Positions 3,801 to 28,603 of a DNA stretch of 29,309 nt are shown one piece after another (position 1 is the stretch's first letter; each line of letters begins with the position of its first letter). Origin of the DNA: a virus; IMG/VR virus record IMGVR_UViG_3300030328_003556, positions 1-29,309 of that record; one strand, written 5' to 3'. The translations under genes and the position numbers were made by a program. The notes beneath the pieces were generated by a model. The model was not told the origin of the DNA. It was given only the letters and a program-made list of their open reading frames with translations, and did not search any database.

Positions 3801-6800
3801 TCCAGATCTATCACCTTGATTACCATCTAATCTTCCTAAAGTATGGGTATCGATATTAAGTATTGTAGAAGTAGTTGAATATGCATTTGGAATTTTAGTT
3901 TTTCCATTATCATAAGGATTTCCCTTATATTTGGCACCATATTTTGTTCCTTTAGATCCGGGCCATGAAGTTTTATTTATTTTTCCAGATCTATGACTAG
4001 GATAACAAATTCTAGCAGTAATTTCGGGAACTTCATCTTGAAGATTACCTCCATTACTTATAAAATCAGGCATATTTCCCGAAATATTTTCTCCTGGTTC
4101 AAATACACCCGATATCATTTCAATTTCAACAAGTTTAGGTGTAATCCATTTTTCCATCCTCTTACCCTGTAAAAATGGATAAAGTCTAGTGAAAGATTTA
4201 AATCCCCAACCTCTACCTTCAACATTTCTAGAACGCATCCATTTCGCCACTTCTGTAGAAAGGATTTCATCCCCCATTGATTCATTTTCCCAAACCTCTT
4301 TGACCTGAATCTGACTTCCTAGTTTTTCTTTCTTAACAGTAACAGCTTCAACATATAAACCTTTTGATGGAATTGTTCCATTTTTAAAGTATTTTCTACT
4401 ACCACCTATCCACTTATGTTTACCAGTATGATCTCCATTCTTCATTGCTTTCCGCCAAGCCTTTCTGGTAGCAGCAGATTCTTCTGCTCCGCCAGGTGCA
4501 TCATATCTCTTAGATTGTTTTGCAGTAAGAGCTGGTTTCCATTCAGGTTTTCCTGTCCATGTAGTATTCCAAGAATCCCAAATTTGAGGTGCTAATCCAG
4601 TTTCTGGATCAACTCCATTAATTTTAGCTTGTTCAGCCATTACAGCAGAGAAGTTTCCTTCTACTTTAACTGTTTTTGGTTCAAGTCTTACTTGATCTAC
4701 CCAAACATCTACAGATGGATTTAATCTTAATCTTCCTTTCCAATATTTTACCAAATATGGAGTTACACTTATAATTCTTGTTGCATATTGTTGATCTTTC
4801 CACTCTACGTGAGAATAATCTAAAGTTAAAGTATCACCAGTCAATTTACAATTTTCACCACTTAAAGTACCCATAGTATCGGGTTCTTCTGTAGTCCAAT
4901 ATGGATCTGAAAATGTTCCAATTCCTAATGTAGAAGTAGAACCAATCATCAACTCTATTTCTGTAGTATGATGACTTGCTCTCATAAATGATTGTTGTGG
5001 ATCAATAGAATTCTTTAATCCAGACTGAACATCTTGTGTACTTAAACTTGAGAAATTATCTACAAAGAAACCACTCTTAAATCTATTCAATCCTGTAGAA
5101 TCAGGAATAAACATATTTGCAGTATCTGTTTCTAAAAGAGTAAGAGTTGAAAAATCTTCTAAATTGGCAATTCTAGTTTCCAATCTAGCAATATCAGTCA
5201 TTCTAAATCTCTTATAATTCGTTCTAGAAATACTAGCATCTTCAACATTATAAAGATATGGTGGTAAAAATATTCTTCCTATTTCTATTGAATCTGCAAC
5301 AGCAGGAGGATCCATTGGAACATCTCTAGGAGTTCCTTTTACAATTTGAAATTCTCCTTTACCATTAAGATATATTTTATCAACTCTAGGAAGATAATAG
5401 TTGAAACTCTTTAAGAAAACACTTTCATCATTTGCTAAAATATTTTCAGCACTATTTCCTGAAGATGTAAAATTACGTGAACTAAATTCAAACGGACTTC
5501 TACCATTAGCAACAACAGTATAATCAGAAACTCTAGGTCTCATATCGAGCATATCGCCATTCCTTACATCATGAAAATATGGAACATTTCCATAATCAAA
5601 ACTAGAATAAGAATCTACAGTAGTTAAATCTCCAGTATCAGATGAATCATAATATGCATTTTCAAAATATATTATAATTTTCTGAGATGGTATTTTATCA
5701 TTAGATTTTCTTTGTATACGAGAATAATCATATATTGTATTTCTTTGTCCATTATCAAATATATAATATTCAGAAATATTATTTGATCTTACATCAAGAT
5801 CTTGGAATTTTGCTGTTATATTAGATTCTTCAAATTCTAAAGTTTCTCCTTCTACAAAATTCTCACCATTTAAGGGAATAATATCAATTGTAGTATCATT
5901 AAACAAATTAACTACAGCTGCTTTTGCTAAACTCTCAGATCCAACAACACTTTCTCCTAGAATAAGATCAGATGTAGTACCTTGAGGACCAGACAATGAA
6001 GAAACAGACATTCTAGGTGATGAAGGTGTATCTGCTGGTTGAGTTGCTTCATATATACCATAAATTCTATAAACATCAGAAACATTTAAACTAATAAGTT
6101 CATCTTCTACTCTAGTTCCAAATGGATACTGTCCAGTAGTTGTTCCTGGTCCAACTAATCCATTATTGAGAGTAGTTGCTCCAAGTCCAGATCCAGTATA
6201 TATTGATTTATCAACAATTAAACTATTTGCTCTATTTCTAAGTTTGATTTTAGATGTTAAATTTGTTTTAAGAATAGTAGCTACTAAATCAGCTCCATAA
6301 TCTGTAGTTCCTAAACCATTAAATGTTATTGTTTTTCCATTAGTTGAAATATTTACTTTATCAGCAGTAAGAGGTTCAATTGTACCATCAGTACGAAGTA
6401 ATGTATATCTTTGATCTTGATAATCTAAGAAAGATTCATTTTTATTAGAAAGAGTTACACTTGTACTATTATTATCAATATCTACACTAAATTGTCTTCT
6501 AATAATTAATTTTGATTCACTAGTATCTATTTCTGAAATATTAGCATTAGGAAGAGATGTAAATAGATAACTAGAATCATCAATATCTTCTACTCTTGGT
6601 CGTTGTATTCTAATATTGTTAAGTGTAGATTTAGCAGAATTATTAGGAGTTCCAATAGGAAGAGTACCTGTTGTAATTCCTGTTACAGTTGCAAGACCAA
6701 CTATAGTTAATTCAGTTGAAGTTATTTCATTACTAAAAACTTTTGTTACTCTAGCAAGAACTGGTTCATCATATTCACTAGATTTAAATTTTATAATATC

Positions 6801-8642
6801 ATTATTCTTAACAATAACAGAATAATTTGGATCAGGTAATGTTATACTACTTACACCTGTAGTTACATCAAGAGCAGTAATACCACCTTGATCTAAATTA
6901 ACAACACCTTTTAATGCCATATTAGCATTAAAAGTACTTATACCAAGGCTATCTAATTTAGGAGAGAATACAGATTTAGTATCTGAAAATTCATATTGAG
7001 TAACTCCTGTAGAAATACCACTTGTACTTATACCATTGAATGCAAAATATTCACTTTTTACAAATTTACCTTTAACATCTGTTAAAGTAAGAGTTTTAGA
7101 ATCACTAACTGATTCCTTTAAATATCCACTAGCTCCACTAGATCTTCCTTCAACATAAGTAGGAACAGGTAATGTGATCCTCCTATTCATGTTTATAGTA
7201 GTATAGGTCTGTACATCAAAAAAGGATGTATTCCACTTATTAAGATCTAAATTATTGGTATCATATCCTCCTTTTTTAAGAGAAAAATCATACATACGAG
7301 CCACACCAATTTCTTGTCCAGCCGCTACATTCCAATCACTATCTCCACTAGAAGTAAAAGAATCACCACCTACTCTTTGATCTCTCAAACTTACAGTATA
7401 AGTATTTCCTATACCAATTTTAGGAGTACCAGAAATGCTCTGTAAGGTTACATTTCTTCCTGTTTCATATTTAATATTTTTATTTTTCTTTCTTTTTGTA
7501 GTTCTTGGTTTTTCTACATCTAAACGAATCTGATCAGTAACTTCAACTTCATATCCTCTGACATATGCTTTTCCATCACTTATAATATAATTCATCAAGT
7601 CATCAGAAGGAGTATTTCCTTCATCTGTCTCTTCTCCTGCTAGATAATTACCATTATTTCCTTCTAAATTATTTAAACACTCTTCTACATCTACGCCAAA
7701 TGGTCTTATATAATAATCTCCATCAGTTTCATATGTCCGTGAAGCCATTGCATCACGTATTGCAGTGAATTCTGGACCTTGAGGTAAACTTTGTATAGTT
7801 CCATCAAGAACTTGTGTTAATTCAATAAAACCATCATTACCAGTCGAATCTAATGGATACTTAGCAAGAGTAGCAGTTATTTTAAGTCTATCTGCTCCTG
7901 GTGCACCATAATTATTAAATCCTTGTGCATTATCATATAATGAAGAATCATCATCTGCTGTTATGAATTCCTCAAGAATATCAAACCCTATTCGATAAGT
8001 TGGAGTAGTTCCATACTGATCCAATACTAATAATTGATCCGTTACATTAACAAAATTCCCTCTTATAAAGTATATACCTGCAGCAATTCTAAATATAGAC
8101 CCATTTCCAGTAGAATTTGCTGGAATTGTTGTAGCAAAATTTTCACCAGATGTAATAATTACATTAGACAAAGAAATACCAGATTCAGTTATAAGATTTT
8201 CGCCATCTGCAAAAACTATTGGAGCATCTTCTCCTTCTCCAGGAGTTAAATAACCAATATATAAAGTTGGATTTCCCCTTTCAGACTCAATATCAGTTAA
8301 ATAATGTTCAACTTTTGCTTTAACACCAGTTGTTTGACCTGTAACTACTGTACCTATTAATTCTTTAAGATATGTCGATACTTCAACTCCCCCAAATTCA
8401 CCTTGCAACTCAACAACAGAAACATCCGAATCATAAGATGTTTCACCAGGAATCACTATGGATCCCTCTTTAAACATAGAATTACCAAATTGTTCAATTT
8501 GGTTTTGGAGAATAGATTGTAAAGTGGTTAACTCTCTTGCCTGTACAGGATAAGAAGGCTTAAATAAAACCTTATAAAAATTATTATCCTCATTAAAATC
8601 GTCAAAATATGGAGAGACGTTAAGATTAGTTTCCTGTGGCAT
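852..8642 (-). CDS. Giant DUF4815-type virion structural protein (baseplate/fibre-associated)
   Basis: This 2,596-residue protein starts MPQETNLNVSPYFDDF and has the N-terminal pattern of DUF4815 phage structural proteins (YKVLFKPSYPVQARELTTLQ and FKEGSIVIPG near residues 24-65). A short coiled coil, ARLETRIANLEDF, lies near residue 1,145. A block seen in many T4-like marine phages follows near 1,480-1,530 (MRSRN, FTRLYPFLQGK, KLVEIEMISG, FEPGENISG), and then DPLAQSFACDDENGVFVTKA near 1,735, another family hallmark. Between about 1,340 and 1,450 there is a Trp- and Lys-rich stretch. A glycine-rich G-Y-G-Y segment lies near 1,985-2,050. The start is 6 nt after the gp8 stop. The gene occupies the place of T4 gp9/gp10, and a role linking baseplate to fibres is likely but inferred. 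It is at the long end for the family. Confidence 0.88.
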   Translation of the reverse strand: MPQETNLNVSPYFDDFNEDNNFYKVLFKPSYPVQARELTTLQSILQNQIEQFGNSMFKEGSIVIPGETSYDSDVSVVELQGEFGGVEVSTYLKELIGTVVTGQTTGVKAKVEHYLTDIESERGNPTLYIGYLTPGEGEDAPIVFADGENLITESGISLSNVIITSGENFATTIPANSTGNGSIFRIAAGIYFIRGNFVNVTDQLLVLDQYGTTPTYRIGFDILEEFITADDDSSLYDNAQGFNNYGAPGADRLKITATLAKYPLDSTGNDGFIELTQVLDGTIQSLPQGPEFTAIRDAMASRTYETDGDYYIRPFGVDVEECLNNLEGNNGNYLAGEETDEGNTPSDDLMNYIISDGKAYVRGYEVEVTDQIRLDVEKPRTTKRKKNKNIKYETGRNVTLQSISGTPKIGIGNTYTVSLRDQRVGGDSFTSSGDSDWNVAAGQEIGVARMYDFSLKKGGYDTNNLDLNKWNTSFFDVQTYTTINMNRRITLPVPTYVEGRSSGASGYLKESVSDSKTLTLTDVKGKFVKSEYFAFNGISTSGISTGVTQYEFSDTKSVFSPKLDSLGISTFNANMALKGVVNLDQGGITALDVTTGVSSITLPDPNYSVIVKNNDIIKFKSSEYDEPVLARVTKVFSNEITSTELTIVGLATVTGITTGTLPIGTPNNSAKSTLNNIRIQRPRVEDIDDSSYLFTSLPNANISEIDTSESKLIIRRQFSVDIDNNSTSVTLSNKNESFLDYQDQRYTLLRTDGTIEPLTADKVNISTNGKTITFNGLGTTDYGADLVATILKTNLTSKIKLRNRANSLIVDKSIYTGSGLGATTLNNGLVGPGTTTGQYPFGTRVEDELISLNVSDVYRIYGIYEATQPADTPSSPRMSVSSLSGPQGTTSDLILGESVVGSESLAKAAVVNLFNDTTIDIIPLNGENFVEGETLEFEESNITAKFQDLDVRSNNISEYYIFDNGQRNTIYDYSRIQRKSNDKIPSQKIIIYFENAYYDSSDTGDLTTVDSYSSFDYGNVPYFHDVRNGDMLDMRPRVSDYTVVANGRSPFEFSSRNFTSSGNSAENILANDESVFLKSFNYYLPRVDKIYLNGKGEFQIVKGTPRDVPMDPPAVADSIEIGRIFLPPYLYNVEDASISRTNYKRFRMTDIARLETRIANLEDFSTLTLLETDTANMFIPDSTGLNRFKSGFFVDNFSSLSTQDVQSGLKNSIDPQQSFMRASHHTTEIELMIGSTSTLGIGTFSDPYWTTEEPDTMGTLSGENCKLTGDTLTLDYSHVEWKDQQYATRIISVTPYLVKYWKGRLRLNPSVDVWVDQVRLEPKTVKVEGNFSAVMAEQAKINGVDPETGLAPQIWDSWNTTWTGKPEWKPALTAKQSKRYDAPGGAEESAATRKAWRKAMKNGDHTGKHKWIGGSRKYFKNGTIPSKGLYVEAVTVKKEKLGSQIQVKEVWENESMGDEILSTEVAKWMRSRNVEGRGWGFKSFTRLYPFLQGKRMEKWITPKLVEIEMISGVFEPGENISGNMPDFISNGGNLQDEVPEITARICYPSHRSGKINKTSWPGSKGTKYGAKYKGNPYDNGKTKIPNAYSTTSTILNIDTHTLGRLDGNQGDRSGYIRKGMEIVGEKSGAIAKVTNVKLVSDHRGFIKFCFYIPDPHIPGNPRWLTNGPKTFRLTDQKNNKYKPIGIVNTAGNAKYEAKGTVETVQEKIISVKNAVVEEIPLKKTKTELKFTGKYIDPLAQSFACDDENGVFVTKAEVYFQAKDKNDIPVTCQLRTMELGLPTSVILPFSSVDIDPDDIVLTNNATKPTTIEFEAPVYLEGGKEYCIVLLSNSTEYKVFISRMGDNDVRFKDEETGDRVRVNTQPTLGSLFKSQNASTWTPSQYEDLTFKLYRAKFVKDGVINFYNPKRGMMGENRNSHVQRLLPGAIHSVARKLRLGLTNGGIGMGASFTAMKEGTTIRQYINVGAGSSTPTGKFVGVAGSASGTMEISVPGVGYVPEVGEQQYTNVSLTNITGTGKNGTANIYIKNGVAIAATISNGGYGYQAGDEVTASIGSSALGRNLRLGIGTLSSFNEIILDQVQGTWFTGAGSTMVVTDVGGSEYELLESWTTTGVEVPSKIDNIEVVNDGTYIRVSQKNHGLHSPGSLGSIWGVHVEKGGTTKLAANYGLDDTGSISLVDASKFVDFEGLPVSATNPGLIRCRHELMAYRGVSNNKLTGITRFVNIGNRSWLKKPLRKNHNVYKFEFNGVSCARISMWRHPIILNDDPNKPVEYPLGLDYWWCKVNMSDFRNLRGVGKITDRSENQTTLPPLYLTETSNSYPSHRVYGSRNLQFEAITPQVAMSNPSSCSVSGRIKTISATSVSGTEAAYVEQEYEGVQLNETNFLDTPRMIASRINEVRNLKDNEGIAGEKSFDLLLDLNRGDDDRLSPVIDITRVSCILTSNRINSVIDDYSTDWKVKTLKEDPSECTYVSTRLTLETPATSIKLMLDSYVNINSDIRAFYYISNNEEEEPIFTPFPGYENRNSFGVSKDPTANDGTSDNFIPKDPDIVSSSPDLTSYTFSVNELPEFKYYKVKLVMTSTSQASVPMVRSLRAIALA

Positions 8643-10224: not shown

Positions 10225-10233
10225 GTTATTTAT
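10225..10233 (-). promoter_or_regulatory. Late-promoter-like motif before gp8
   Basis: The minus strand reads ATAAATAAC, with ACATAAATA giving a close match to the T4-type late octamer. It spans the TAA stop of the 4,366-residue gene and lies about 17 nt before the gp8 ATG. The same nonamer is found before the fibre gene, where it also overlaps an upstream stop codon. Confidence 0.45.
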
Positions 10234-13200
10234 GTTAAGTATTGAGAAGATTTAAGTGGATTCACTCTTCTTAAAATTGGAGAAGTGTTAATTCCTGCCA
10301 TACCTTTAGTATTATATATCTCAAAAGTGTTTGATGAAGTTCCACGAGAACTCATATCAACTCTACCCCAACTATAATCACCCATGTCTCCAGTACCAAT
10401 TCCAGTCAAACCATTTAAAGTAGAAACACCAACTTTTACTCGTACAATAGATGTTAAACCTGAACCAACAGAAGGATCTATTCGTGCAAGATCAGTCTGA
10501 GCAATAGAAACATTGGCAGCTTCATATATTCCATCTAAGAATTGTGTTGCCACTCCAACAGTTGCTCCTGTTGGATAAGAAACCGCAGTAATACCATTAC
10601 CAACGTTAGTGTTATTTAGAACAAAATAATAACCAGCAGCAATACTACTCATAGTAATTGCAGTTCCTGTAATAGATGCATCTCTAAGATAGGAATCCAT
10701 AGGAATATGAAGATCTAAAACTAACGAGGTGGAACCAACACCAACTCCATCAATATTCTGAGTAACAGCTATTCCAGTAATAACACCAAAATCTCCACTA
10801 TAAAGAACATTATTAACTTTTTCATAAGTAGGTGAAGGTTCTTCAATCAATACTAGAGGAGGTTGAGTAATCCATTTTCCTTCTTCAGTAGAATAAGTAC
10901 TATATCCTGTTCCTGGAGATGTAATAGTATATCCAGTAACAGTTCCAGCAGCAGATACCGTTGCAGTTACAGTTGCTCTCTGTGTAGAACCTAATCCAAC
11001 AGGACTTGAGATAGTAACAGAAGGTGCAGAAGAATATCCTTTTCCAATTTCAGAAGTAACTATTCCAACTACAGTTCCTGCAACACTAACAATCGCAGTA
11101 GCTGCTGCTCCAGTAATAATATCTTGACTTAATATTTCAATACTTCTTTCTATAGTTGAAGAAGCATCTTCATTCGTAGAGTCAAAAACAGTTCGTACAT
11201 TTTCAACCGATGCAATTGTATCACTTGTTTCTAGTGATTTAATTAAATTGGTTGTTGGGAAAATTGAAGGTTCATAAAGAGGTCTATCTTTAGGAACAGG
11301 AATATTATCAATAATTTTATCTTCTGTTTGACGACACCAATCAACAGGTCTCTTTAATTCTTCATCATCTGATACACCTGGACCGAAATATGAATTAGTT
11401 TTTGCATCTGTTGGACTAGTTATTCTATTTACTAATCTCTTATCTTCTTTTTGATCTAATTGAGTAGAATTAATCTTAATATCATCTCCTTTTTTAACAG
11501 TTTCAAGTATATCAATATCAACCACATCCACACTAGAAGTTCCCTTATAGAACCAAATCTTAGAAGTATCTCCTTTTTTAGGTGGTTCAGAGAAAGTTAT
11601 TCTAGTTCCACCAGGGAAAGTATAATTTCCACCAGGTGCTTGAAGAATATTATTAATAAAGACAATTAAAGAAGCTTCTACATCAACACTAGATCCTGGA
11701 GCAGCAGCAATTGATTTTTCTTCATTATTTAATGTTAAAGTGAAGGTTCTAAGTTTTCCATCAAATTTATTATCTAAAGAATCTAATACTTCTAATTGTC
11801 CAAATGCCCAACCAGAAAATTCATCTTGTTCTAAAGAATCTACAGTTAATGTAAATGGTCTAAAGTTAGTTGTAATGCCAGGATCACCTAAACTTTGTCC
11901 AAACTTAGATGGTTGTTCATTACAAGTTGGAATACCAATATTTCCACCCACCTCTACAGTTAATACATCTCCATACTGATATCCATATCCAACATCTCTA
12001 ACTCTAAAGTCAACTACACTAGATCCAGATCCAACTACTACATCAACTTTTGCTCCCGTCCCAATACCACTTTCAGAACCATGGCCAATATTTGCTGCAT
12101 ATACGAGAGGAACATTGGAATAAGATAATGGAGCATCGATTGATACAACAGGAGGTTCATATTTCTTAATAATAACAGAAGATCCAGAAGATGCCCCTCC
12201 AACGACTCCAGAAGCAAGTGTAATAATACGGGTGTCAATACCTATAAGTGTAGAACCAACGCCCACAGAAGACGATATAGTGCTTCCTAGACCAAGATAT
12301 GTTGCAGCAGTAGAAACAATACTATAATCTTTATTATTAATCTTTATTTTTGACTTCGAAGTATCTACTCCAGTTGGCCATAAAGATGTAGTAACAAAAA
12401 TCTTATCAGTTCCTACACCCGAACCTGCAACAGTATTAATTGGGAAAGTTCCAATACCAATTACACCCAAATTAGTTGCTGCAGCACCAACAATAGAAAC
12501 TACAGTTTCACTAGAAGGAACATCACTACTAAACTTAATACCAGTAGTATTAGCAATCGAAATAGTAGAGAATCCAGTAACCACAGGAGTAGCAATAACA
12601 GGTGCCAATAAACTAGTCTGAGGATTCTTATAATTGGAAATATATGCAGTATACCCCGTTCCTGAACTTGCTGTAATAGCAATTCCTGTAATATATCCAT
12701 CTGATTGAAGAGCAGTACCAATTGCAACTACAGTAGAAATTCCTAGAGATGCTTGTGAAACAGATACATTCACTTTATGACCTGAAACACCACCAGTAGT
12801 TAATATTCCTGTCCTATAACCAGAACCACTATTACCAATAGATACAGAAGATACAGTTCCTAATCCAGAAACTATTGCGGTTCCACCTGCAGAAACTAAT
12901 GGTTGATATGCAAATCCTTCAGTAGAAGAAACTGAAACAATAACTCCACCAATAGGTATAGAAGAATTATTAGGATCATAAGCTTGAGAAACTGCTATTC
13001 CTGTATAACCAATAGTAGTTGCTGCACCAACTTGTGATAATTCATAATCTCCTATAATAGGTCTAACACCACCAAATCGTGCTGGTTGTTGAGCAATTGC
13101 ATTATTTAAAATAAGAGCATTTTGGTCAGAAATAGAAGTTAAATTATTACCTTGATTTTTTAAAGCAAATTGAGTAGATATTCCATTAAATTGTTCACTG

Positions 13201-16200
13201 ATATTATCAAAGATATAATTGCCATTATATGCTGTGACTGCAGTTCCTGTTACTCCACTCCTTGTAAATGTCCTACCACTAAAGGTTGCATGAGTACTAA
13301 TACCAGTCCAGTCTCTATTATCAGGATCTCCTGTAGTTGTAGATATTGGTGAAAGTCCTTTTGGTGCTTCAACAAAGCTTAAAGTATTTCCTCTAACATT
13401 ATAAGATCCAGTAAATTTAGTGACTGTTGAATTTCCAGGATGAATTCCAATGGTAGTATCCATCCATCCACGTTGAACTACTATTCTATTTGCACCTGCA
13501 ACACCAACTTGTTCTACTAATAGATATTCTTGATCTATATTTAAAATATCTCCTACAAAGACTGAAGTAATACCACTAACATCAATAGAATTATCTGCTC
13601 TCACAACAGGATTGGTAAGAGTATATGCAATACCTGTTTGTACAAGAGGAGATTGTATAACATTATCAACAGTAATCAACATCTTTCCTCTACCTTCAGT
13701 AGAAATGAATGAATGTTGAGTTCCAACACCCAATGCATTAAGATCTAAAACAGTAGGATTCTCTTTTAATGCATTTTCAGCAGAAGCAGCAAGTTTAATC
13801 TTTAAATCTCCATCTTTTACTGCGAATACTTTAGTTGGTAATTTATCAGTAGATCCAAATCCTGCAATAGTAGCAGTAACAATACCAATAGGAGAATCTA
13901 ATCTACCATAAGAATATTCAAGTTGTTCTCCACTAACAAAGAAATGATTTGGAACAATAATAGTATTATCTGTTAAATTAACTATTGTAGATTCTGCACT
14001 ATTAAACTCTTTTTCAAATACAGGATTTTGTTTAGTAAAGATATTAAAATCTCTCTTAATATCTCTTTCTGTTCCACTATAGTTTCCTGAATTAGTTTGG
14101 ATTTTTCCATTAGTAAAAGGTATTTCAGTAGTAATAATATCTTCATTTGCAACTCCTATACTATTCTGATATACTTGTACTGTACAAGCTATTCCCGCAA
14201 TTGGTCTAAATGTTAATTCAACATCTGTACCCTTAATATTAGCACCAACAGTACCTAGACCCATATCAGAGAAGATTATACCATATTCTGTTAAATCAAC
14301 CCTTCCAGCAGTTGAAGCAACAGCAACTTCAGACATCTGATGCATAGTTCCACCAGCACTAACACTTACCATACAATAAGAACTTCCATAATCAGTAAGA
14401 TTATATGTAGAAACTGTATGAATTCCAGGAACTTCACCTGCTTTTTCTGTAGCTCCAATACTTGTTACCTTAGATGAAACATCAGTAGTATCAAAAGTAA
14501 CTGAACTTACACCAGTTTTACTTTCATCAAAAGATAATATCATAGAGTTACATACAAATGATGTACTTAATGCTGAATGTGGAGTAAATTCGACTATAAC
14601 TTTATCGCTAGAAACACGAGCACCATAAGTTCCTAATCCTACTCCTGCTTTTGCTACTTTACTTTCTGCAGTCAAATTACCATAATCTAATAATTCTAAT
14701 TCTCCATTAAAACTATTATAAACATAATTCAATTCTTGGAACTCATAGAATGAATCATCAGTTGCATTAAATTCTAATATAACCTTAGATGCATTAAATG
14801 TCTTAGGAATAGTAACTATTCCTGCCATCGATGTCATTGATGTTGGAAGAGTAATAGAAGACGTAATTGCTACTACAGAATCTCCAAATGCTGTACTACC
14901 TACTCCTGTTGCTGTTCCTTTCAAATCATAAGAAATAGCACTTACGGAATAATCATTTCTCTTAAACTTAACAGGATACCAATCAAGATATCCATCAGCT
15001 CCAGAAACTGAGAAATCAAATGATCCTAGAGGAACTTCAGTATCAACTCTTCCATATTGATTAAGATATCCGAAAGTTGTTCTTCCTTCTTTATAGTCAT
15101 GAAGAAGAGTAACTAATAATATTTGTCTTTCATCAGTATATCTTTTATCTCTAGCATAAGTAATATATTTTCTTACTCTAGCATCAGTAAGGGAAAAGAT
15201 ATCTACTGCAGAATATGGTGTTGATCTAGGATCACTATTAAATTCTCCACTTATATCATCAATTACTAATGCCCTATTACCTCTAGATTCAGAATAATCT
15301 TGTATTATTTTTTGGAATGTAACTAAATCAGAACCCAACTCACCTTCGATCTCAAAACTATTTTCTTTTACTAAATCAAAGTCATATTCACAATTCAAGT
15401 TAACATCAGATATCATATCTACCTGAATACTGAATAATCCTTGATCTTGAGTAGTACCAATACCAACAGAAGAAGCATCAAAACATTGTACAATTAAATC
15501 TGAGAATTTTCTAAATCCAACAGGATGATTTAGAACTGTAACAGCATCATCCCATTTATCATAAGAAATTTCAGATTTAATAGAATAAGAAAGGTTTTGG
15601 TAATAATCATTATCTGAAATTCTCTGTAATTCATTATTTAAGAAACCAGATTCAACTTTCCAGCCGTTATTAACTACTGAAGAAGAATCTACCTCAAAAT
15701 GAGATTTTGGTTGTTCTGAAGTAATTATTTTTCCTTGAGCTCCAGATGATTCTCCTATAATTAAATCTCCTTCTTTAAAATCATCATTAGTTTCAAGTTT
15801 AAGTAACTCTCCTAAAGAAGTCCATTTTAAAACCTTACCACTTTTATCTTCAGAAGTAATTATTTCATCTACTAAGAAATTATATTTCTTTAAGGTAGTA
15901 TCAAATATTGGGAATAACCTTTCAGGAGTAGCTAATCCTGCAGATCCATCTTTATTAAAGTTTCCTGGATATTCCCCTTCCTTAAGATGTTTAGATAGGT
16001 TAATAACAACTGATCCATTATTACCACCAATATTCTCATCCATTGAGGTAATTTCAAATAATTGATAACCATAATTTTTACTATTAAATCCAACACCAGT
16101 TGAACCTACACCAACACTTATATTTTCTAATAAAATTTTATCTCCAACTATAAATGGCCAATCAATAGCAACACTATATCCAACATTTGTATAAAGTCTT

Positions 16201-19200
16201 ACATCCTTAGTATTATCGTTATATGTTAAAGAACTTATACCAACACCATTAGAGTTTTGAGTGGGAATAATTCTAGGAGAAACAGAAAAGAGACCCTTAG
16301 TATTTTTAAGAATTTTTACTTGAGTATCTCCTATTTCATATTTTAAATCAGCATCAGGATCGACTATATTTGTAATAGGATCTACTAAAACTAATTTAGG
16401 AGCTAAAGTATAATTCAAACCAGCAGATGAAATACCAACTTTATCTAAAATATTTGCTCTATCTAATCTAATACTTGCTGGAATAGAACCAGAAGGTGCT
16501 ATAGTCTTATCTGCTGAATAATCAAAACCAATATTTCTAATTTCAAATTTATCAATATTACCAATGGTTGTAGTTTTTGGTCTTAATAAAGCATCTTTAC
16601 CAATAGAAGATGCAATAGATATAAATGCTGGTAAAGTTTTAAAGGAACTCCCTTTGGATTGTATATTAACTTTAGATACGGCTCCATCTGCACTAAGAGA
16701 TTTAGTAGTATAATTATAATTGGCAAAAGCAGCATTAGTTGTAGTAATACCAGTAGCAAAATTAGTATCAGATAAGTAAGTAGTTACCTCTGGGGTTTCT
16801 TCAATAGTATAAGAGAACGTAGTAGTTCCTATTCCAGATATCTTATGGATTCCACTATATTCACTTTCAACAAAGAATAATTTATTATTTTCTACTATTT
16901 CCTCTGTATCAGTAACATAAGTTTTTATAACATCATTAAGTGGACTATCCGTAGATGTATCTACAGGAACAATATTATAATACAATGGATATTTTATATT
17001 TGCATTAACAGATAATTCAAGTGTTGCTGAAGAATCAACTCCTGGAATACCTATAGATTTAACTTCAAATGTTCCTGTTGTAGTCGTAGAATCAAATTCA
17101 TCTAAGAATTTAGAATCTGTAAAGAGTCTAAAATTAAATGCATTAGTAGAACCATAACTAACAGGATATGATAAAGAAGAATCAGAAAGATTAAATACTA
17201 TTTTATTATTTCTAGTTAAATCTAAAGGTGGATTTATAGGTGATATAGTTCCACCAGAAGCAGAAGTTATATTAATTATTATTGGAGTTTGTAGTAAAGA
17301 ATTATAATGTGTTTTTGATAGATTAAATCTATTTTTATCAACTACTACTACATAATAAATTTCATTATGTATTAATCCTCCAGAAGGAGTAGAAGATGTG
17401 TAGATAACTTTTTGTCCAGTAGAATATTTGTGATTAATAATTCTAATAGTATTATCAAGAATAGAAACTTCAGAAGCAAGAAATGTTCTTGGGTTAATTA
17501 CTAATCTTCTATTTTGATCATTATACTTAACAACAACATCTGTTGATACGCCTGGTTTTACATCTAAATCTATAGTATCATCCAAACTTAAACCATGAGT
17601 AGTAGCAGTAGATACAGTTACTGTATTCTTACTTAAAATACCTTTAACAACTTTAGAATAATTTGTTTTTAAACTATGATAAGATCCTGTTCCAATACCA
17701 GTAAAATATAATAGATTAGATGTTGTTCCCAATCCAACATAACTTCCACCAGTATTGATTGCTACACGAGAAGAAGAAAGACCAATAAAGTTTGGTTCTA
17801 TAACAGTTGCATAAAGAATACTTCCATCTTCAAGATTATTATTTGTTGTTCCATCTGTAGAAACTGCAATATTTCCACCACCATTAGAATTATAGATTAA
17901 AGCATCACCATCATTTAAATCATTATCTGGAAGATGAATAGATCTATATGGAGATTTAGCTATAACTGGTTTATCAAGATATACAGTTGCTCCAATTCCC
18001 TGTAAAGCACTACTATCAAAAGCAATAGATATTGTAGTTGCTGCAATCGATACAATGGGGAATGTTCCATAAAAAGATGAAGATTCTATACCAGATGCAT
18101 TTCTAGCACTAGAGATAGATACATATCCACCATCATTATAATTTCTATAAGAATACTTTCTCCATTCACTTCTACCTTTATTCCTGAGTTTCCTCTTTTG
18201 CTTACCACTTAATCTATTCCAATTAGGTTTTATTCTTGTATCTTGGAAAGCAATAATAGTAGTAGTTCCTGTGCCAATCCAACCTGGAGTAGTATAGGTA
18301 GTAAGACCAACTACAAATGATGAACTTAATCCAACACCATGAGTAGTTCCAAGAGCAACTGTATCTTTAGGATCAAAATAATATTCTTTATTAAGTTGAC
18401 TCTTTTCCAAATTTGCATAACTTCCATCAAATTCCAATTTTCTAGAAACTTGATAGAATTTATCACTAGCAGAACAAGCAAGTCCAGAAACTGTTCCATC
18501 AATTTCTCTTAGAATTTTAATTTGAGAATTATCTCTATCAATTTCTAATACTTTAACTCTTTCAGTATTAACTCCATCTGATGATATTCCTAAGATATCA
18601 TTCTCCATTAAACTAGGAGATGATAGATTTCCATTTACACTAACATAAGTTGTTACACCAGTAACTGCTACATTTCTCAATTCTTGTGTTAGTGGATATG
18701 TAGAACTTGTTATACCAACACTAAATGAATTTAAAAGATCAGTTTTAGTTGTAGATAAACCTGCAACTGTTATAATTTCTCCATTATAAAGTCCATGTGG
18801 TACTGTTGCTATTCCCAAATATCTTGAATTACCTATTGGTATAAACTCAACAGATTCAAATGAAGTTGATGCTACACTAATATTGGTTATTTCTTTACCT
18901 TTCAATTCTGATACTACAGATCTTGATTTAAATCCTCCAGATTGTTCATAATCAAGTCTAATCTTATCATCTATTTTATAATTATCTCCAGAATTAACAA
19001 TATCAAATCCATCTAAAGATCCTCTTGTTACAGATTTTACTTCAGTAAATTGTTTTTGAATAGAATTTGGGTTAAGTAAGAAATTATAAGAAGAAGTATT
19101 AGAATCTAATTCATAAGGTCTAGTATTTCTAAACCATCCAGATTCATTAATATTAGTAGAATCCTGATTAGATGTTGGTAGATAATTATAATCAATTATT

Positions 19201-22200
19201 GTAGATTTAAATTTATTACCAATAAAATATGGAAATACTGGTTTTCTGAATCCTAAGAAAGGTCCAGAAGATTCATTTGATTCACTTATAGTAGTATAAT
19301 AAGCATATACTCCTTTTGGAAACTCAGGAGTCTTAGCAAATCTACCGTTATATTCATCAAGATCGCCAATTCCTGAATATTCATGATCTTCAACAAAAGA
19401 TCCTACAGGATAAGTATCTACAGATGGTCTATTAGTTTTTGAAACAGTTTTATATCCACTTTCCATTAATTTAATTGTACCACCTTCGGATGTAGAATAT
19501 CCATAAGGTCCATAGATAGGATTTCCATCATATGCCCATCCTATAATAGGAGAATGGAATACAGAAGCAACTTCAGAACCAGTAAAACTCTTCTTTAAAT
19601 CTGGTTCAAATTCCTTTTTACCTCCAACTACTTTAGACCCTTGAACTAATTCTCTTAATCTACGAGGAGCATATAAATGATTATATTGTAAAGTATCAGA
19701 CGTTTCTAAAGTTGTAGATATAACTCCATCATCATCTGTTATTTTTTCTGTAGCAAAAAGTCTTTCTGTTATATTAACAGTCCATTTTCTAAATTCTACT
19801 TCTATCTTTCCTTCAGAACCAGCAGATGTAACTTCAATACTAGTATCATTAGAAAAATAACCACTTCCTCCAGATATAATTTTAACTTCTATAATCTTAC
19901 CAGAACTAAGTACTGGAGTTAATACTGCTCCACTTCCTTGTCCCTCAACAGTAAGAAGAGGTGGAGTATTATATTCTCTTCCTGTATTCTGTACTAATAC
20001 ATCTATAACTTCTCCTTCACTAGAAATAACAGGAATAAATTGTGCTCCTTCACCACTTCTAATAAAGATTTGAGGATCTCTATAGAAATTAATAATATCT
20101 GATGAACCATATCCAACTCCACCATTTTCTATAAAGGATGATTGTAGATGTCCTCTAAAAATAGGTTGAATTATTGCTTTAAAATCTTTAGGATAGAAGG
20201 TTGTATCTCCATATGCAACATTATTAGTAGAGGCACTTCCTACAAATATAGTTGTTAATCCAACTGTTCCACTAATAATTACATTTATTGGAGGATCTGA
20301 GAAAACCTGAGTACTAACTCCAACTGAATTTAAATCAATATATTGTTTTGTATCGTAAAAATATGATGATCCCGTAGTTCCTAATCCTATAGGTGATAGT
20401 TTAAAATTATCTTCATCTAAAGAAGTTACAAGATAATCAGTATCAACTACTAATCCTTCAATAGAAGTTCCTGTGGGACAGGAATATCTAATAGTTTCTC
20501 CACTTTCAAATCCATGATCTACAATTTTAACATTATTTAAAGAAGTAATAATCCCCGTAGGTTGAGCACTTATCCTTCTATTCTTATAATCTGATCCACT
20601 ATCTAAAATACGAATAGAACTTACTTTTTGTTTTTGATCAAAAGACTCTAATGCATGATTACCAACACCCCAACTAATAGCAATTGTAGAAAGACCAACA
20701 ACTTCTCCATTAGGTGCAGTAGAAGCCAATCCTACTCTATTGGTTCCATCGATAGCATCTTTTTCAGTTTTGTAAAGTGAAACATCTAATGGATTATGTA
20801 CTTTTACATAATATTCTGCATCAGTCGAAAGTCCAATAATACTTTTTTGATCAAAAGTACGATAAAAAACTCTTTCAGCATTTTCAAACTTATGAAATGT
20901 ACTAAAACCAATTACACTATTGATCAGATCTACATTAGGAACTGTCAGACCTGCCCCTAAGACATCAGAAGCATTGAAACTTGCTTTATAGGTATAAGGA
21001 AGTAGATTTGCTTCTGCAACAGCACCTACGCCATTTCCACCACTTATAGAGATACTAGGGATTTCAGTATAATTAAATCCCTGTTCTATAAGATTAATTC
21101 TTTTTAAATTACCTATAACATTTGCTCTTATAGTAGCTCCTGTTCCTACAGAATCATTTACATATACAACTGGTGGATTTATTACATCATAACCATCACC
21201 AGGTGCAGCAACTATTGATTTTGTAATATCACCATAAAATAAAGTATCTCTAGATTTATAATTAAGTATCTGAACTCCATTAACTAATACTCCTAATGAA
21301 CCTGGTTTAGTTTCTTCCTTAACATTATTAGAAACAGCAGGAACAATTTTACGAATTAATTTTTGTGCATCAATATCTCTATTATTAAATTTTTCTAATT
21401 GTAATTTACTATCAGATACTATTGCATTAAAAGTAATGAAATTTCCTGTAGAAATATTTGCTCTACTATATGCTAATTTAACAGTTAAAGGATTAACAAC
21501 TTTCACAAAGTAAGGTATTCCAGTAGGAATTCCAAGAGTATCTGTAGAAGAAGAAGGAGTATATGAAACTATATCTCCAGTATAGAAACCATGATTACCT
21601 ATTACTAATTCTTCGGTTTCAATAAAACTTCCACTAAAAGTAATTGCATAATCTTGTATACCTAATGGAGTACTTAAATAATTGGGAAGAGAGTTAGAAG
21701 CAACATATACCTCTTCATCATTCAAATAAACATTTTGAACATCACTGGTATACTTATTAATTTCTGGAAAATTCAAACAATTTACTTTGTTTAGTAATTT
21801 TTCAATTTTATATGAAAAAGAAATATCTAAACTTCCAGAACCTTTAATTTCAACTTTAAATTCATCTACAATACTTGTAACTAAAACATTATATTCAAGT
21901 CCTGTACTACTCTTTAGTAAAGCAGCACTTCCTAATGAAAATCCATGTTTATTATAAGTAGTAATTTCATAAATGTACTGTCCAACATCTACTAAAGAAA
22001 TTTCTTTAATATCATAGGAATTGGAAATATTATAAATCCATTCATTTGCTCTTATATTAGTTTCATCTGCTTTTAATCCTAAATTTTTTACAGAAATTAA
22101 GTCAGATTTACCATATTCAATAGTATTTTCGAGAATATCAAGTTTAGATAAAACACCAGTAATTCTAAATCTTACTTGACCTTGATTATTTGGTAAAGTA

Positions 22201-23330
22201 TAACCATATGCATAAGTATCTAAGTATAATTCCTGTCCTGCTACAGTATTTTGATCAAGTCCTGTACATCCTAAAAATTGATTTACTGTTTTATTTGTAT
22301 ACTCAACTGAAGAAGTTGTTCCATTTGCAAATTGTACAATTAAAGTACCTGAAGAAGGAAATCCTAAAGTTGAATCAACATCAATAGTATTTGCACCTAT
22401 TCCAATATCTGTTATTATTTTAGTCTTGGGATGAATAGAAAATGTACCAAGAACAGAAGTTAGATCTAAATTTAATACATAATAATCTTTTTCACCTCTT
22501 CTTATTGGTTCAATATTATTAATTGTTCCCGATGCACTATTTTGAAAAGTAGTTTCATCTTGGAATATAGTTAAATTGGTTAATTTTTCTATATCTCCAA
22601 TAATAGGTTCTACTACAATATCTCTAGTATTCCTCCAATCTGCATTGGAGGGTATTATCATTCTTTCTCTAGGCTTTAAAACTTCAACATCTTTACCATA
22701 CAATGCTCTAAAAAGTATCTCAAATGATTCATCCGTTCCTTTAGTACTATAAAAATCTTTTACTTGTTTTAAAAAGATGTTTTGATCTAATCCATCTGCT
22801 AAAATTCTATTATCAAATCCTGGAGAAATTTGTTTTTTTAATTTTAAAAGGAATTGTGTTAAAAATTTGGTACTTAAGTTATCTACTATACTTCCAGATA
22901 CATGATCATCTTCTTCTGTAGAAGAAAAAAGAAGATCATCAGGACTATTGGGAGTTTCATAAGATTCTATCCCACTAAATCCCCTATAACAATTTAAAAA
23001 ACTAGTTGATGTTTTATCAGTATAACTAATAATTTCATCATCAATCTGTAAAAGACCATAATGTTCAGGAAAACCTTGAGTTGAACTAACATCAATTGTA
23101 GTATCAACACTGCTTATATTATTAGATAAAGTAGTGGTTGTAGTAATACCAGCTAAATTATCTATTTTTAAATATTGATCAATATTCTCTAAGATATCAA
23201 CAGGTCCACTCTGTACCGTTTGAGAAACATAATATTGTTTTAAAAATTCTCCAATAAGGGGAAAATCTGTTTCAACAAACTCAGGAAGTTGATTCTGAAT
23301 TATTAATGAAGTATTTACTCTCTTATTCAT
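10230..23330 (-). CDS. Giant (4,366-residue) baseplate-associated structural protein in the gp7 position
   Basis: One uninterrupted frame of 13.1 kb encodes 4,366 residues. The N-terminal 225 residues look like a tail or baseplate attachment domain shared with other phages: LPEFVETDFPLIGEFLKQ near 15-32 and STKGTDESFEILFRALYG near 195-212. Most of the rest is repetitive and beta-rich. There are TTIDV-type segments (near 77 and 310), many glycine-rich G-S-G-Y or G-x-G-Y modules (for example near 713, 1,157, 3,510 and 4,100-4,143) and dense GIGT, GVST and GVSS motifs. A YHYH-like segment, IGWAYDGNPIYGPYGYS, lies near 1,260-1,280. The gene sits between gp6 and gp8 like T4 gene 7, but T4 gp7 is about 1,030 residues and I see no direct similarity beyond position. 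It probably forms the baseplate periphery or contacts the host surface; this is inferred. Confidence 0.85.
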   Translation of the reverse strand: MNKRVNTSLIIQNQLPEFVETDFPLIGEFLKQYYVSQTVQSGPVDILENIDQYLKIDNLAGITTTTTLSNNISSVDTTIDVSSTQGFPEHYGLLQIDDEIISYTDKTSTSFLNCYRGFSGIESYETPNSPDDLLFSSTEEDDHVSGSIVDNLSTKFLTQFLLKLKKQISPGFDNRILADGLDQNIFLKQVKDFYSTKGTDESFEILFRALYGKDVEVLKPRERMIIPSNADWRNTRDIVVEPIIGDIEKLTNLTIFQDETTFQNSASGTINNIEPIRRGEKDYYVLNLDLTSVLGTFSIHPKTKIITDIGIGANTIDVDSTLGFPSSGTLIVQFANGTTSSVEYTNKTVNQFLGCTGLDQNTVAGQELYLDTYAYGYTLPNNQGQVRFRITGVLSKLDILENTIEYGKSDLISVKNLGLKADETNIRANEWIYNISNSYDIKEISLVDVGQYIYEITTYNKHGFSLGSAALLKSSTGLEYNVLVTSIVDEFKVEIKGSGSLDISFSYKIEKLLNKVNCLNFPEINKYTSDVQNVYLNDEEVYVASNSLPNYLSTPLGIQDYAITFSGSFIETEELVIGNHGFYTGDIVSYTPSSSTDTLGIPTGIPYFVKVVNPLTVKLAYSRANISTGNFITFNAIVSDSKLQLEKFNNRDIDAQKLIRKIVPAVSNNVKEETKPGSLGVLVNGVQILNYKSRDTLFYGDITKSIVAAPGDGYDVINPPVVYVNDSVGTGATIRANVIGNLKRINLIEQGFNYTEIPSISISGGNGVGAVAEANLLPYTYKASFNASDVLGAGLTVPNVDLINSVIGFSTFHKFENAERVFYRTFDQKSIIGLSTDAEYYVKVHNPLDVSLYKTEKDAIDGTNRVGLASTAPNGEVVGLSTIAISWGVGNHALESFDQKQKVSSIRILDSGSDYKNRRISAQPTGIITSLNNVKIVDHGFESGETIRYSCPTGTSIEGLVVDTDYLVTSLDEDNFKLSPIGLGTTGSSYFYDTKQYIDLNSVGVSTQVFSDPPINVIISGTVGLTTIFVGSASTNNVAYGDTTFYPKDFKAIIQPIFRGHLQSSFIENGGVGYGSSDIINFYRDPQIFIRSGEGAQFIPVISSEGEVIDVLVQNTGREYNTPPLLTVEGQGSGAVLTPVLSSGKIIEVKIISGGSGYFSNDTSIEVTSAGSEGKIEVEFRKWTVNITERLFATEKITDDDGVISTTLETSDTLQYNHLYAPRRLRELVQGSKVVGGKKEFEPDLKKSFTGSEVASVFHSPIIGWAYDGNPIYGPYGYSTSEGGTIKLMESGYKTVSKTNRPSVDTYPVGSFVEDHEYSGIGDLDEYNGRFAKTPEFPKGVYAYYTTISESNESSGPFLGFRKPVFPYFIGNKFKSTIIDYNYLPTSNQDSTNINESGWFRNTRPYELDSNTSSYNFLLNPNSIQKQFTEVKSVTRGSLDGFDIVNSGDNYKIDDKIRLDYEQSGGFKSRSVVSELKGKEITNISVASTSFESVEFIPIGNSRYLGIATVPHGLYNGEIITVAGLSTTKTDLLNSFSVGITSSTYPLTQELRNVAVTGVTTYVSVNGNLSSPSLMENDILGISSDGVNTERVKVLEIDRDNSQIKILREIDGTVSGLACSASDKFYQVSRKLEFDGSYANLEKSQLNKEYYFDPKDTVALGTTHGVGLSSSFVVGLTTYTTPGWIGTGTTTIIAFQDTRIKPNWNRLSGKQKRKLRNKGRSEWRKYSYRNYNDGGYVSISSARNASGIESSSFYGTFPIVSIAATTISIAFDSSALQGIGATVYLDKPVIAKSPYRSIHLPDNDLNDGDALIYNSNGGGNIAVSTDGTTNNNLEDGSILYATVIEPNFIGLSSSRVAINTGGSYVGLGTTSNLLYFTGIGTGSYHSLKTNYSKVVKGILSKNTVTVSTATTHGLSLDDTIDLDVKPGVSTDVVVKYNDQNRRLVINPRTFLASEVSILDNTIRIINHKYSTGQKVIYTSSTPSGGLIHNEIYYVVVVDKNRFNLSKTHYNSLLQTPIIINITSASGGTISPINPPLDLTRNNKIVFNLSDSSLSYPVSYGSTNAFNFRLFTDSKFLDEFDSTTTTGTFEVKSIGIPGVDSSATLELSVNANIKYPLYYNIVPVDTSTDSPLNDVIKTYVTDTEEIVENNKLFFVESEYSGIHKISGIGTTTFSYTIEETPEVTTYLSDTNFATGITTTNAAFANYNYTTKSLSADGAVSKVNIQSKGSSFKTLPAFISIASSIGKDALLRPKTTTIGNIDKFEIRNIGFDYSADKTIAPSGSIPASIRLDRANILDKVGISSAGLNYTLAPKLVLVDPITNIVDPDADLKYEIGDTQVKILKNTKGLFSVSPRIIPTQNSNGVGISSLTYNDNTKDVRLYTNVGYSVAIDWPFIVGDKILLENISVGVGSTGVGFNSKNYGYQLFEITSMDENIGGNNGSVVINLSKHLKEGEYPGNFNKDGSAGLATPERLFPIFDTTLKKYNFLVDEIITSEDKSGKVLKWTSLGELLKLETNDDFKEGDLIIGESSGAQGKIITSEQPKSHFEVDSSSVVNNGWKVESGFLNNELQRISDNDYYQNLSYSIKSEISYDKWDDAVTVLNHPVGFRKFSDLIVQCFDASSVGIGTTQDQGLFSIQVDMISDVNLNCEYDFDLVKENSFEIEGELGSDLVTFQKIIQDYSESRGNRALVIDDISGEFNSDPRSTPYSAVDIFSLTDARVRKYITYARDKRYTDERQILLVTLLHDYKEGRTTFGYLNQYGRVDTEVPLGSFDFSVSGADGYLDWYPVKFKRNDYSVSAISYDLKGTATGVGSTAFGDSVVAITSSITLPTSMTSMAGIVTIPKTFNASKVILEFNATDDSFYEFQELNYVYNSFNGELELLDYGNLTAESKVAKAGVGLGTYGARVSSDKVIVEFTPHSALSTSFVCNSMILSFDESKTGVSSVTFDTTDVSSKVTSIGATEKAGEVPGIHTVSTYNLTDYGSSYCMVSVSAGGTMHQMSEVAVASTAGRVDLTEYGIIFSDMGLGTVGANIKGTDVELTFRPIAGIACTVQVYQNSIGVANEDIITTEIPFTNGKIQTNSGNYSGTERDIKRDFNIFTKQNPVFEKEFNSAESTIVNLTDNTIIVPNHFFVSGEQLEYSYGRLDSPIGIVTATIAGFGSTDKLPTKVFAVKDGDLKIKLAASAENALKENPTVLDLNALGVGTQHSFISTEGRGKMLITVDNVIQSPLVQTGIAYTLTNPVVRADNSIDVSGITSVFVGDILNIDQEYLLVEQVGVAGANRIVVQRGWMDTTIGIHPGNSTVTKFTGSYNVRGNTLSFVEAPKGLSPISTTTGDPDNRDWTGISTHATFSGRTFTRSGVTGTAVTAYNGNYIFDNISEQFNGISTQFALKNQGNNLTSISDQNALILNNAIAQQPARFGGVRPIIGDYELSQVGAATTIGYTGIAVSQAYDPNNSSIPIGGVIVSVSSTEGFAYQPLVSAGGTAIVSGLGTVSSVSIGNSGSGYRTGILTTGGVSGHKVNVSVSQASLGISTVVAIGTALQSDGYITGIAITASSGTGYTAYISNYKNPQTSLLAPVIATPVVTGFSTISIANTTGIKFSSDVPSSETVVSIVGAAATNLGVIGIGTFPINTVAGSGVGTDKIFVTTSLWPTGVDTSKSKIKINNKDYSIVSTAATYLGLGSTISSSVGVGSTLIGIDTRIITLASGVVGGASSGSSVIIKKYEPPVVSIDAPLSYSNVPLVYAANIGHGSESGIGTGAKVDVVVGSGSSVVDFRVRDVGYGYQYGDVLTVEVGGNIGIPTCNEQPSKFGQSLGDPGITTNFRPFTLTVDSLEQDEFSGWAFGQLEVLDSLDNKFDGKLRTFTLTLNNEEKSIAAAPGSSVDVEASLIVFINNILQAPGGNYTFPGGTRITFSEPPKKGDTSKIWFYKGTSSVDVVDIDILETVKKGDDIKINSTQLDQKEDKRLVNRITSPTDAKTNSYFGPGVSDDEELKRPVDWCRQTEDKIIDNIPVPKDRPLYEPSIFPTTNLIKSLETSDTIASVENVRTVFDSTNEDASSTIERSIEILSQDIITGAAATAIVSVAGTVVGIVTSEIGKGYSSAPSVTISSPVGLGSTQRATVTATVSAAGTVTGYTITSPGTGYSTYSTEEGKWITQPPLVLIEEPSPTYEKVNNVLYSGDFGVITGIAVTQNIDGVGVGSTSLVLDLHIPMDSYLRDASITGTAITMSSIAAGYYFVLNNTNVGNGITAVSYPTGATVGVATQFLDGIYEAANVSIAQTDLARIDPSVGSGLTSIVRVKVGVSTLNGLTGIGTGDMGDYSWGRVDMSSRGTSSNTFEIYNTKGMAGINTSPILRRVNPLKSSQYLT

Positions 23331-27254: not shown

Positions 27255-27299
27255 TAAAAAACCCTAGGAAAGACTTTTCTCCTAGGGAAATTTTTTTTT
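27255..27299. terminator. Bidirectional Rho-independent terminator
   Basis: A strong stem (CCCTAGGA at 27262-27269 pairing with TCCTAGGG at 27280-27287, extended inward by A/T pairs) is flanked by T-rich tracts on both strands: nine T on the plus strand and six T on the minus strand. It can stop transcripts from either direction. On the minus strand it would end transcripts from the 34 to 55-residue genes before the 54-residue gene. Confidence 0.8.
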
Positions 27300-27423
27300 A
27301 AATTTATATATCTCTCTCGAATTGTCACCTCTGTAGGTTAGGGTCTCTATCGTTTTTTAGCCCGCTATCGCCGACGGGGGGTTAATACAAACGGATCGAA
27401 ATAACTGTCGATTCACGAACGAA
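27300..27423. other. GC-richer intergenic stretch without an ORF
   Basis: No supportable gene was found in about 125 nt between two hairpins. The stretch is clearly more G/C-rich than its surroundings. It contains a possible stem of TTAGCCC (27356-27362) with GGGTTAA (27378-27384, one G-U pair), a short ATCGA/TCGAT stem at about 27394-27411, and CTATCG twice. It may form a structured RNA; no tRNA or known riboswitch pattern was recognised. Confidence 0.35.
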
Positions 27424-28089: not shown

Positions 28090-28257
28090 CTATAACGAGT
28101 CGGAAGATAAGTTCTCTATGTAAGCATTAACTGCTTCAGTTCCTCCTAGGTCGAATAACTTATCCCAGTTAATATCACGAGGATTAAAGTCACTATACAC
28201 ATCTAAATCTAAGGTTATTCTATATTTACTCTTCGAAGATTGCGTTAACATAGTCAT
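28090..28257 (-). CDS. Small hypothetical protein (55 aa)
   Basis: The chosen start gives 55 residues beginning MTMLTQSSKSKYRITLDLDV and ending VNAYIENLSSDSL. An in-frame ATG 12 codons further upstream exists, but that region overlaps the promoter, whereas the chosen ATG has an AAGGGGG ribosome binding sequence 6 nt before it. The protein has a beta-rich segment (KYRITLDLDVY) and a helical, acidic C-terminus (WDKLFDLGGTEAVNAYIENL). I do not recognise the family. A perfect-consensus sigma70 promoter sits just upstream with a leader of about 20 nt, so it should be expressed strongly and early. Confidence 0.75.
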   Translation of the reverse strand: MTMLTQSSKSKYRITLDLDVYSDFNPRDINWDKLFDLGGTEAVNAYIENLSSDSL

Positions 28258-28402: not shown

Positions 28403-28431
28403 TTGACATTTTCTAGCGAGAGTGTTATAAT
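28403..28431 (+). promoter_or_regulatory. Perfect-consensus plus-strand sigma70 promoter
   Basis: The plus strand has TTGACA, a 17-nt spacer and TATAAT, 12 of 12 consensus bases. An inverted repeat TAGCGAG (28414-28420) and CTCGCTA (28435-28441) brackets the -10 box. No plus-strand gene follows: the only nearby frame is 15 codons without a ribosome binding sequence. It is the only strong plus-strand promoter seen in the window. Confidence 0.8.
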
Positions 28432-28441
28432 CTGCTCGCTA
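28414..28441. repeat. Inverted repeat around the -10 box, candidate operator
   Basis: TAGCGAG and CTCGCTA form perfect 7-bp arms separated by 14 nt, with the -10 box of the plus-strand promoter inside. Binding of a dimeric protein here would block polymerase, so this is a natural operator layout. Confidence 0.5.
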
Positions 28442-28594
28442 AGATCACTATAAGAATCAACATTTATAAGGGATAATAAGACGGATTAAGTATACATTAA
28501 CGATCATAATTCGTATCACTATTTGATATCAATCATGGAAGAGATAGAAAACACATATATGTTTTTTAATACATTTAATTAATAATTAAAAACA
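28438..28594 (+). ncRNA. Predicted untranslated plus-strand transcript (candidate small RNA)
   Basis: The stretch between the plus-strand promoter and the convergent minus-strand gene holds no supportable ORF on either strand. A transcript would start near 28438. A stem of AAAACA (28548-28553) and TGTTTT (28560-28565) followed by T, and a larger A/T-only stem at 28574-28603, could end it, although both are weak. If transcription continues, the RNA would be antisense to the gene at the right edge. Existence is inferred from the promoter alone. Confidence 0.4.
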
Positions 28595-28603
28595 TTAATT
28601 AAA
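28574..28603. repeat. A/T-only stem-loop over the end of the right-edge gene
   Basis: TTTAATTAA (28574-28582) and TTAATTAAA (28595-28603) are perfect 9-bp inverted arms with a 12-nt loop. The right arm contains the stop codon of the right-edge gene. It may act as a weak end for converging transcripts. Confidence 0.35.

Follow-up and report, generated by a model that had tools for sequence, protein, structure and literature searches.

The locus and its two promoters

The stretch of DNA analyzed here in full, which we call the window, is an IMG/VR virus record of 29,309 bp (IMGVR_UViG_3300030328_003556) whose proteins match the baseplate wedge proteins gp25, gp6, and gp8 along with other T4-like cyanophage families, and whose relatives are myoviruses of Synechococcus and Prochlorococcus. 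Its larger genes all lie on the minus strand. The baseplate cluster includes two giant ORFs, one at 10230-23330 (minus strand, 4366 aa) with a YHYH domain and a weak baseplate-wedge match, and a second at 852-8642 (minus strand, 2596 aa) with DUF4815. The site considered here lies between a DUF6267/phrog_455 gene that occupies 28595 to the right edge (minus strand) and a small early gene at 28090-28257 (minus strand).

Between these genes, a sigma70-type promoter, TTGACA-N17-TATAAT, matches the consensus at 12 of 12 positions on the plus strand at 28403-28431, with TTGACA at 28403-28408, a 17-nt spacer, TATAAT at 28426-28431, and a TG preceding the −10. The original prediction had described this promoter as perfect, opposed to the direction of the genes, and followed by no ORF, and each of these points was verified: every reading frame behind it closes within a few tens of codons, and none is of note. 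What had been missed is a second such promoter with the gene behind it. The window contains two 12/12 promoters, compared with 0.1 on average in 200 shuffled sequences, and the other one is a divergent TTGACA-N17-TATAAT at 28313-28285 on the minus strand, 90 bp from the plus promoter. It fits the small early gene behind it, which encodes 55 aa (phrog_12516; 28090-28257, minus strand) and has an ATG at 28257 and the SD sequence AAGGGGG.

The −10 of the plus promoter (28426-28431) is located between the arms of an inverted repeat, TAGCGAG/CTCGCTA, at 28414-28441. The arms (28414-28420 and 28435-28441) are exact, as had been noticed earlier, and this repeat is the sole match to TAGCGAG-N10-18-CTCGCTA in the window, with no match in 100 shuffles. 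The conserved core GCTCGCTAAGATCAC at 28434-28448 (plus strand) overlaps the probable transcription start, and in the alignment of relatives the conserved block ends with ACATTTA at 28460-28466 (plus strand), a word that forms iteron-like repeats in some relatives (loci L160, L197, and L200). Farther along is an AT-rich stretch at 28545-28600 (plus strand) with a weak A-U hairpin (28545-28568), and similar sequence is present on the same side of the element in S-SCSM1, Sf-FS3, and P-TIM68. It is on this side that relatives, unlike the window, carry DnaA boxes.

A conserved single-copy element in cyanophages

The conserved unit is a 65-bp DNA element (element A) consisting of TTGACA-N17-TATAAT/TAGACT followed by GCTCGCTWAGATCAC ... 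ACATTTA. In loci upstream of homologs of the 55-aa gene, gathered without use of the core pattern, the antisense promoter and then GCTCGCTWAGATCAC were found in S-SCSM1, S-SM2, SynMITS9220M01, Bellamy, Marine virus AG-345-O18, and IMG/VR relatives. Viral contigs were also scanned for the core alone, using the pattern GCTCGCTWAGATCACWA, and the scan together with the loci already gathered yielded at least 119 distinct viral contig sites. Conservation of the right repeat arm is partly built into this collection, since the core was the search pattern. Outside the pattern, an exact TTGACA −35 was present at 62 of the 85 non-redundant sites among the matches listed, versus a background of 0.5%, and ACATTT at 49 of these 85. 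The −10 occurs as TATAAT, TAGACT, or TATGCT/TACGCT at an unchanged spacer of 17 nt, and from class to class the distance between the core and the −10 varies by up to 5 bp. Because the core moves against the −10 while the spacer stays constant, promoter and core look like two separate modules.

The promoter passes the check for conservation in relatives that the original prediction called for: it is kept in very divergent cyanophages, where it is opposed to the direction of most genes, and a divergent counterpart matching at least 11 of 12 positions, mostly at a fixed distance, accompanies it in 72 of 82 relatives among the matches listed. The repeat was not kept as a whole: its right arm, CTCGCT, is nearly invariant, but the left arm varies and forms a direct repeat in locus L011, and since the right arm alone is conserved, we no longer regard the key operator as being this 7-bp inverted repeat. 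A generic scan for TAGCGAG-N-CTCGCTA returned varied contigs among the matches listed; we discarded it as uninformative.

In the complete genomes of S-SCSM1, S-SM2, SynMITS9220M01, and Bellamy, the core is present in one copy, antisense to the genes, and the element is intergenic; most of the isolates tested (these four, P-TIM68, and others) have the element once per genome. A sequence model of the element built without P-TIM68, S-SRM01, and Sf-FS3 found one match each in these three (E 1e-4, 8e-6, and 0.04, respectively), and it gave one strong match per genome in isolates with good matches and likewise in each of 16 contigs. In the same search, RN05-S, S-CAM7, and P-HM2 yielded no core, which is missing from them or has diverged too far, and P-SSM2 gave only a weak and doubtful match (E 0.03). 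The diverged cores of Syn9, S-PM2, and S-ShM2 were seen only by eye, beside the box clusters described below.

S-8S55, S-CAM9, and S-BM3 retain the element amid different flanking genes. In S-8S55 the homolog of the 55-aa gene is about 13 kb from the element, and for this reason we rejected control by or of this neighbor as the main role. These same three phages have an ORF behind the promoter in the same direction, and it is possible that the promoter drives a gene there and that the transcript has a coding role.

Two other features were seen around the element. The late-promoter word TATAAATA clusters in relatives on the opposite strand, at about −100 and at +100 to +200 from the core, and an unbiased k-mer count found it enriched near the element (24 of 81 loci among the matches listed versus 8 of 2817 background windows). 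Beside the element in S-CAM9 (L280) and S-PRM1 (L279) is a palindromic stretch, cataacataaagcgcaggca...tgcgctttatgttatg, and with it one more antisense promoter that matches at 12 of 12 positions.

DnaA boxes, AT-rich DNA, and element B

In the same unbiased k-mer count, TTTTCCACA is one of the words most enriched around the element, present in 51 of 81 loci among the matches listed versus 4 of 2817 background windows. This word is the cyanobacterial DnaA box (PMC4674748), and the oriC of Prochlorococcus contains DnaA boxes (PMC2836286). A scan of genome contigs for TTTTCCACA triplets returned many cyanobacteria as well as other phyla, and the box consensus was therefore taken from the literature. 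With TTWTCCACA, 157 boxes were counted at 0 to +200 bp (7.2/kb) at the sites among the matches listed, versus approximately none in the flanking kilobases. At the 62 of these sites that are independent, meaning that their downstream sequence is unrelated, 109 boxes fell within −120 to +300 versus 5 in the remaining 463,733 bp, and 36 of the 62 have at least 2 boxes. Where boxes are present there are 1 to 5 per site, and the gaps between boxes on the same strand are mostly 11-12, 19-22, 32, and 42 bp, that is, one to four helical turns in multiples of about 10.5 bp. Each of the 8 clusters of at least 2 boxes seen in 20 phage records is located at the element, with 22 boxes within 300 bp versus 0.32 expected, a count that is partly circular for Syn9, S-PM2, and S-ShM2, whose cores were located beside box clusters. 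The k-mer, 157-box, and 109-box results are free of this circularity, and the element of P-TIM68 was detected by a model that had not been trained on it.

The window's own copy has zero DnaA boxes within 1 mismatch, and about 40% of the sites among the matches listed are without them; several isolates, Bellamy, SynMITS9220M01, S-SCSM2R, Sf-FS3, and S-SRM01, have none either. Across about 84 sites among the matches listed, the AT excess peaks at +13% (+0.13) between +125 and +175 from the element. There is no switch of GC skew at the element in Syn9 or SynMITS9220M01, where the skew is positive throughout, and GC skew was set aside as an origin marker that is not informative in these two genomes.

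A second conserved sequence, element B (CCCTAACCTACAGAGGTGACAA), is found in the window at 27322-27343 on the minus strand, opposite to the core. It is very conserved and non-coding (taAAAA...CCCTAACCTACAGAGGTGACAAatcGa) and is preceded by a GT-rich, A-poor tract of about 40 nt. A scan for its core found at least 120 stretches, and five isolates have a single copy each (S-SCSM1 at 2196, S-SM2 at 58851, SynMITS9220M01 at 50334, Bellamy at 73827, and P-TIM68 at 58337). Element B accompanies the core, always on the strand opposite to it, in 81 loci among the matches listed, some of which overlap, and in all but one of these the distance between elements A and B is 474-1715 bp. P-TIM68 has the core, the DnaA boxes, and element B in this order within about 400 bp. 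Elements A and B may be two parts of one region. Just past element B, the window also has a strong terminator-like hairpin, CCCTAGGAGAAAAGTCTTTCCTAGGG-TTTTTT, at 27262-27287 (minus strand).

A candidate origin of replication

On balance, we think it somewhat more probable than otherwise that the promoter belongs to a cis-acting replication-initiation region, or origin, of T4-like cyanophages (Kyanoviridae), and the best reading of its type is a transcribed origin that usually bears DnaA boxes. A single non-coding conserved place that combines divergent promoters, AT-rich DNA, and phased DnaA boxes has the look of an origin, and this reading is also favored by the promoter-transcript primers of T4, the transcription dependence of lambda, and the prediction of a single origin in Syn9. 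If this is how the element is utilized, host RNA polymerase would transcribe from the plus promoter early in infection, against the direction of the genes, and the transcript would cross the core GCTCGCTWAGATCAC...ACATTTA and enter the AT-rich interval. In most relatives, the helically phased DnaA boxes in this interval would recruit host DnaA, and transcription and DnaA would together open the duplex; in box-less lineages, the window included, the opening would fall to transcription alone or to a phage protein bound to the core. The RNA would then supply the primer, as at T4 origins, and replication would start at the element. The weak points of the origin reading are the window's lack of boxes, the similar lack at about 40% of sites, and a GC skew that shows no switch. 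Also against it are the genomes in which the core is missing, doubtful, or seen only by eye, and the three phages whose promoter is followed by an ORF.

Element B allows a more elaborate version, to which we give only tentative credence: a novel two-part single origin in T4-like cyanophages, in which element A (the antisense promoter, the GCTCGCTWAGATCAC core, and phased host-DnaA boxes) would be paired with element B (the GT-rich tract of about 40 nt and CCCTAACCTACAGAGGTGACAA) situated 0.4-1.7 kb off on the opposite strand, with opposed transcripts priming the leading strands.

The element could instead be a hub of transcription control, which we consider unlikely. Here a regulator from phage or host would bind the core as its operator and control the two divergent early promoters, with DnaA timing early transcription. 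Such a hub would account for the divergent promoter, whose distance is nearly fixed and which is present in 72 of 82 loci among the matches listed, and for the TATAAATA late-promoter motifs nearby, and a core that overlaps the transcription start and shifts its distance to the −10 between classes behaves like a separate protein site. However, clusters of several helically phased DnaA boxes at one place per genome exceed what regulation needs, and the neighboring genes that would be regulated change. Boxes dense at one place per genome could also be a sink that titrates host DnaA and so stops host replication, with the promoter being incidental, but each site has only 1 to 5 boxes, their position beside the promoter core is conserved, and box-less lineages retain the core, all of which makes this highly improbable.

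The original prediction favored a regulated small RNA or antisense RNA, and in our estimation such a gene is a little less likely than the control hub. A strong conserved promoter with no ORF behind it in the window would suit an RNA gene, and CfrI demonstrates that antisense RNA does occur in cyanophages, as had been said (PMC2984593). A T run and a weak A-U hairpin at 28545-28570 also speak for such a gene; they are the only terminator-like feature behind the plus promoter, and a terminator scan made no call for them. Against an RNA gene, the alignment of relatives has no conserved sequence past about +34 nt from the core start, the consensus fold has 0 pairs, the predicted fold of the window transcript is not better than that of shuffles (z 0.16), and Rfam families gave zero matches. 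The absence of conservation and RNA structure past +34 argues against a small RNA, and a structured RNA is unsupported by Rfam, the single fold, and the consensus fold alike. The convergent gene at which the promoter points differs between phages, and the pattern of a promoter without an ORF fails in S-8S55, S-CAM9, and S-BM3, with their codirectional ORFs.

T4-like cyanophages are among the most abundant viruses in the ocean, and for the start of their replication one theta origin has only been predicted, in Syn9. With a candidate that is conserved, present in single copy, and associated with host DnaA boxes, how they start replication becomes open to direct test in cultured phages (S-SM2, Syn9, and S-PM2), and in the literature on cyanophage DnaA boxes or origins we found no study of this element. 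If the origin reading is true, phage replication would be tied to a cell-cycle protein of the host, and if the two-part origin is true, an abundant group of lytic viruses in the sea would depend on host DnaA. The element also offers a marker for orienting and counting cyanophage genomes in metagenomes.

At T4 origins of the oriF/uvsY type (R-loop), promoter transcripts serve as primers, and the element, which likewise comes from a T4-like phage, resembles these transcription-primed origins in that an AT-rich stretch follows a promoter. It differs from them in its host sigma70 consensus, where T4 has a MotA-dependent middle promoter, in its one site per genome, and in the DnaA boxes of most relatives. 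Cyanomyoviruses lack motA (PMC2984593). With cyanobacterial oriC, which has TTTTCCACA boxes near dnaN (PMC4674748), the element shares the same box word, clustered and adjoining AT-rich DNA, but it is built around the promoter core GCTCGCTWAGATCAC, is carried by a phage, and has some members that are box-less. The predicted antisense-directed transcription recalls CfrI of the cyanomyovirus S-PM2; unlike CfrI, which overlaps psbA, the element is without a conserved RNA body or target. A single theta origin has been predicted for Syn9, as cited in PMC2984593, and the element is like it in number, one origin per cyanomyovirus genome. The activity of lambda ori depends on transcription through lambda ori (PMC3985674). 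The lambda promoters converge whereas those of the element diverge, and no initiator protein was identified here, but the candidate origin has in common with lambda ori and its pR and pO promoters (PMC3985674) that two opposed promoters would stand at a phage origin.
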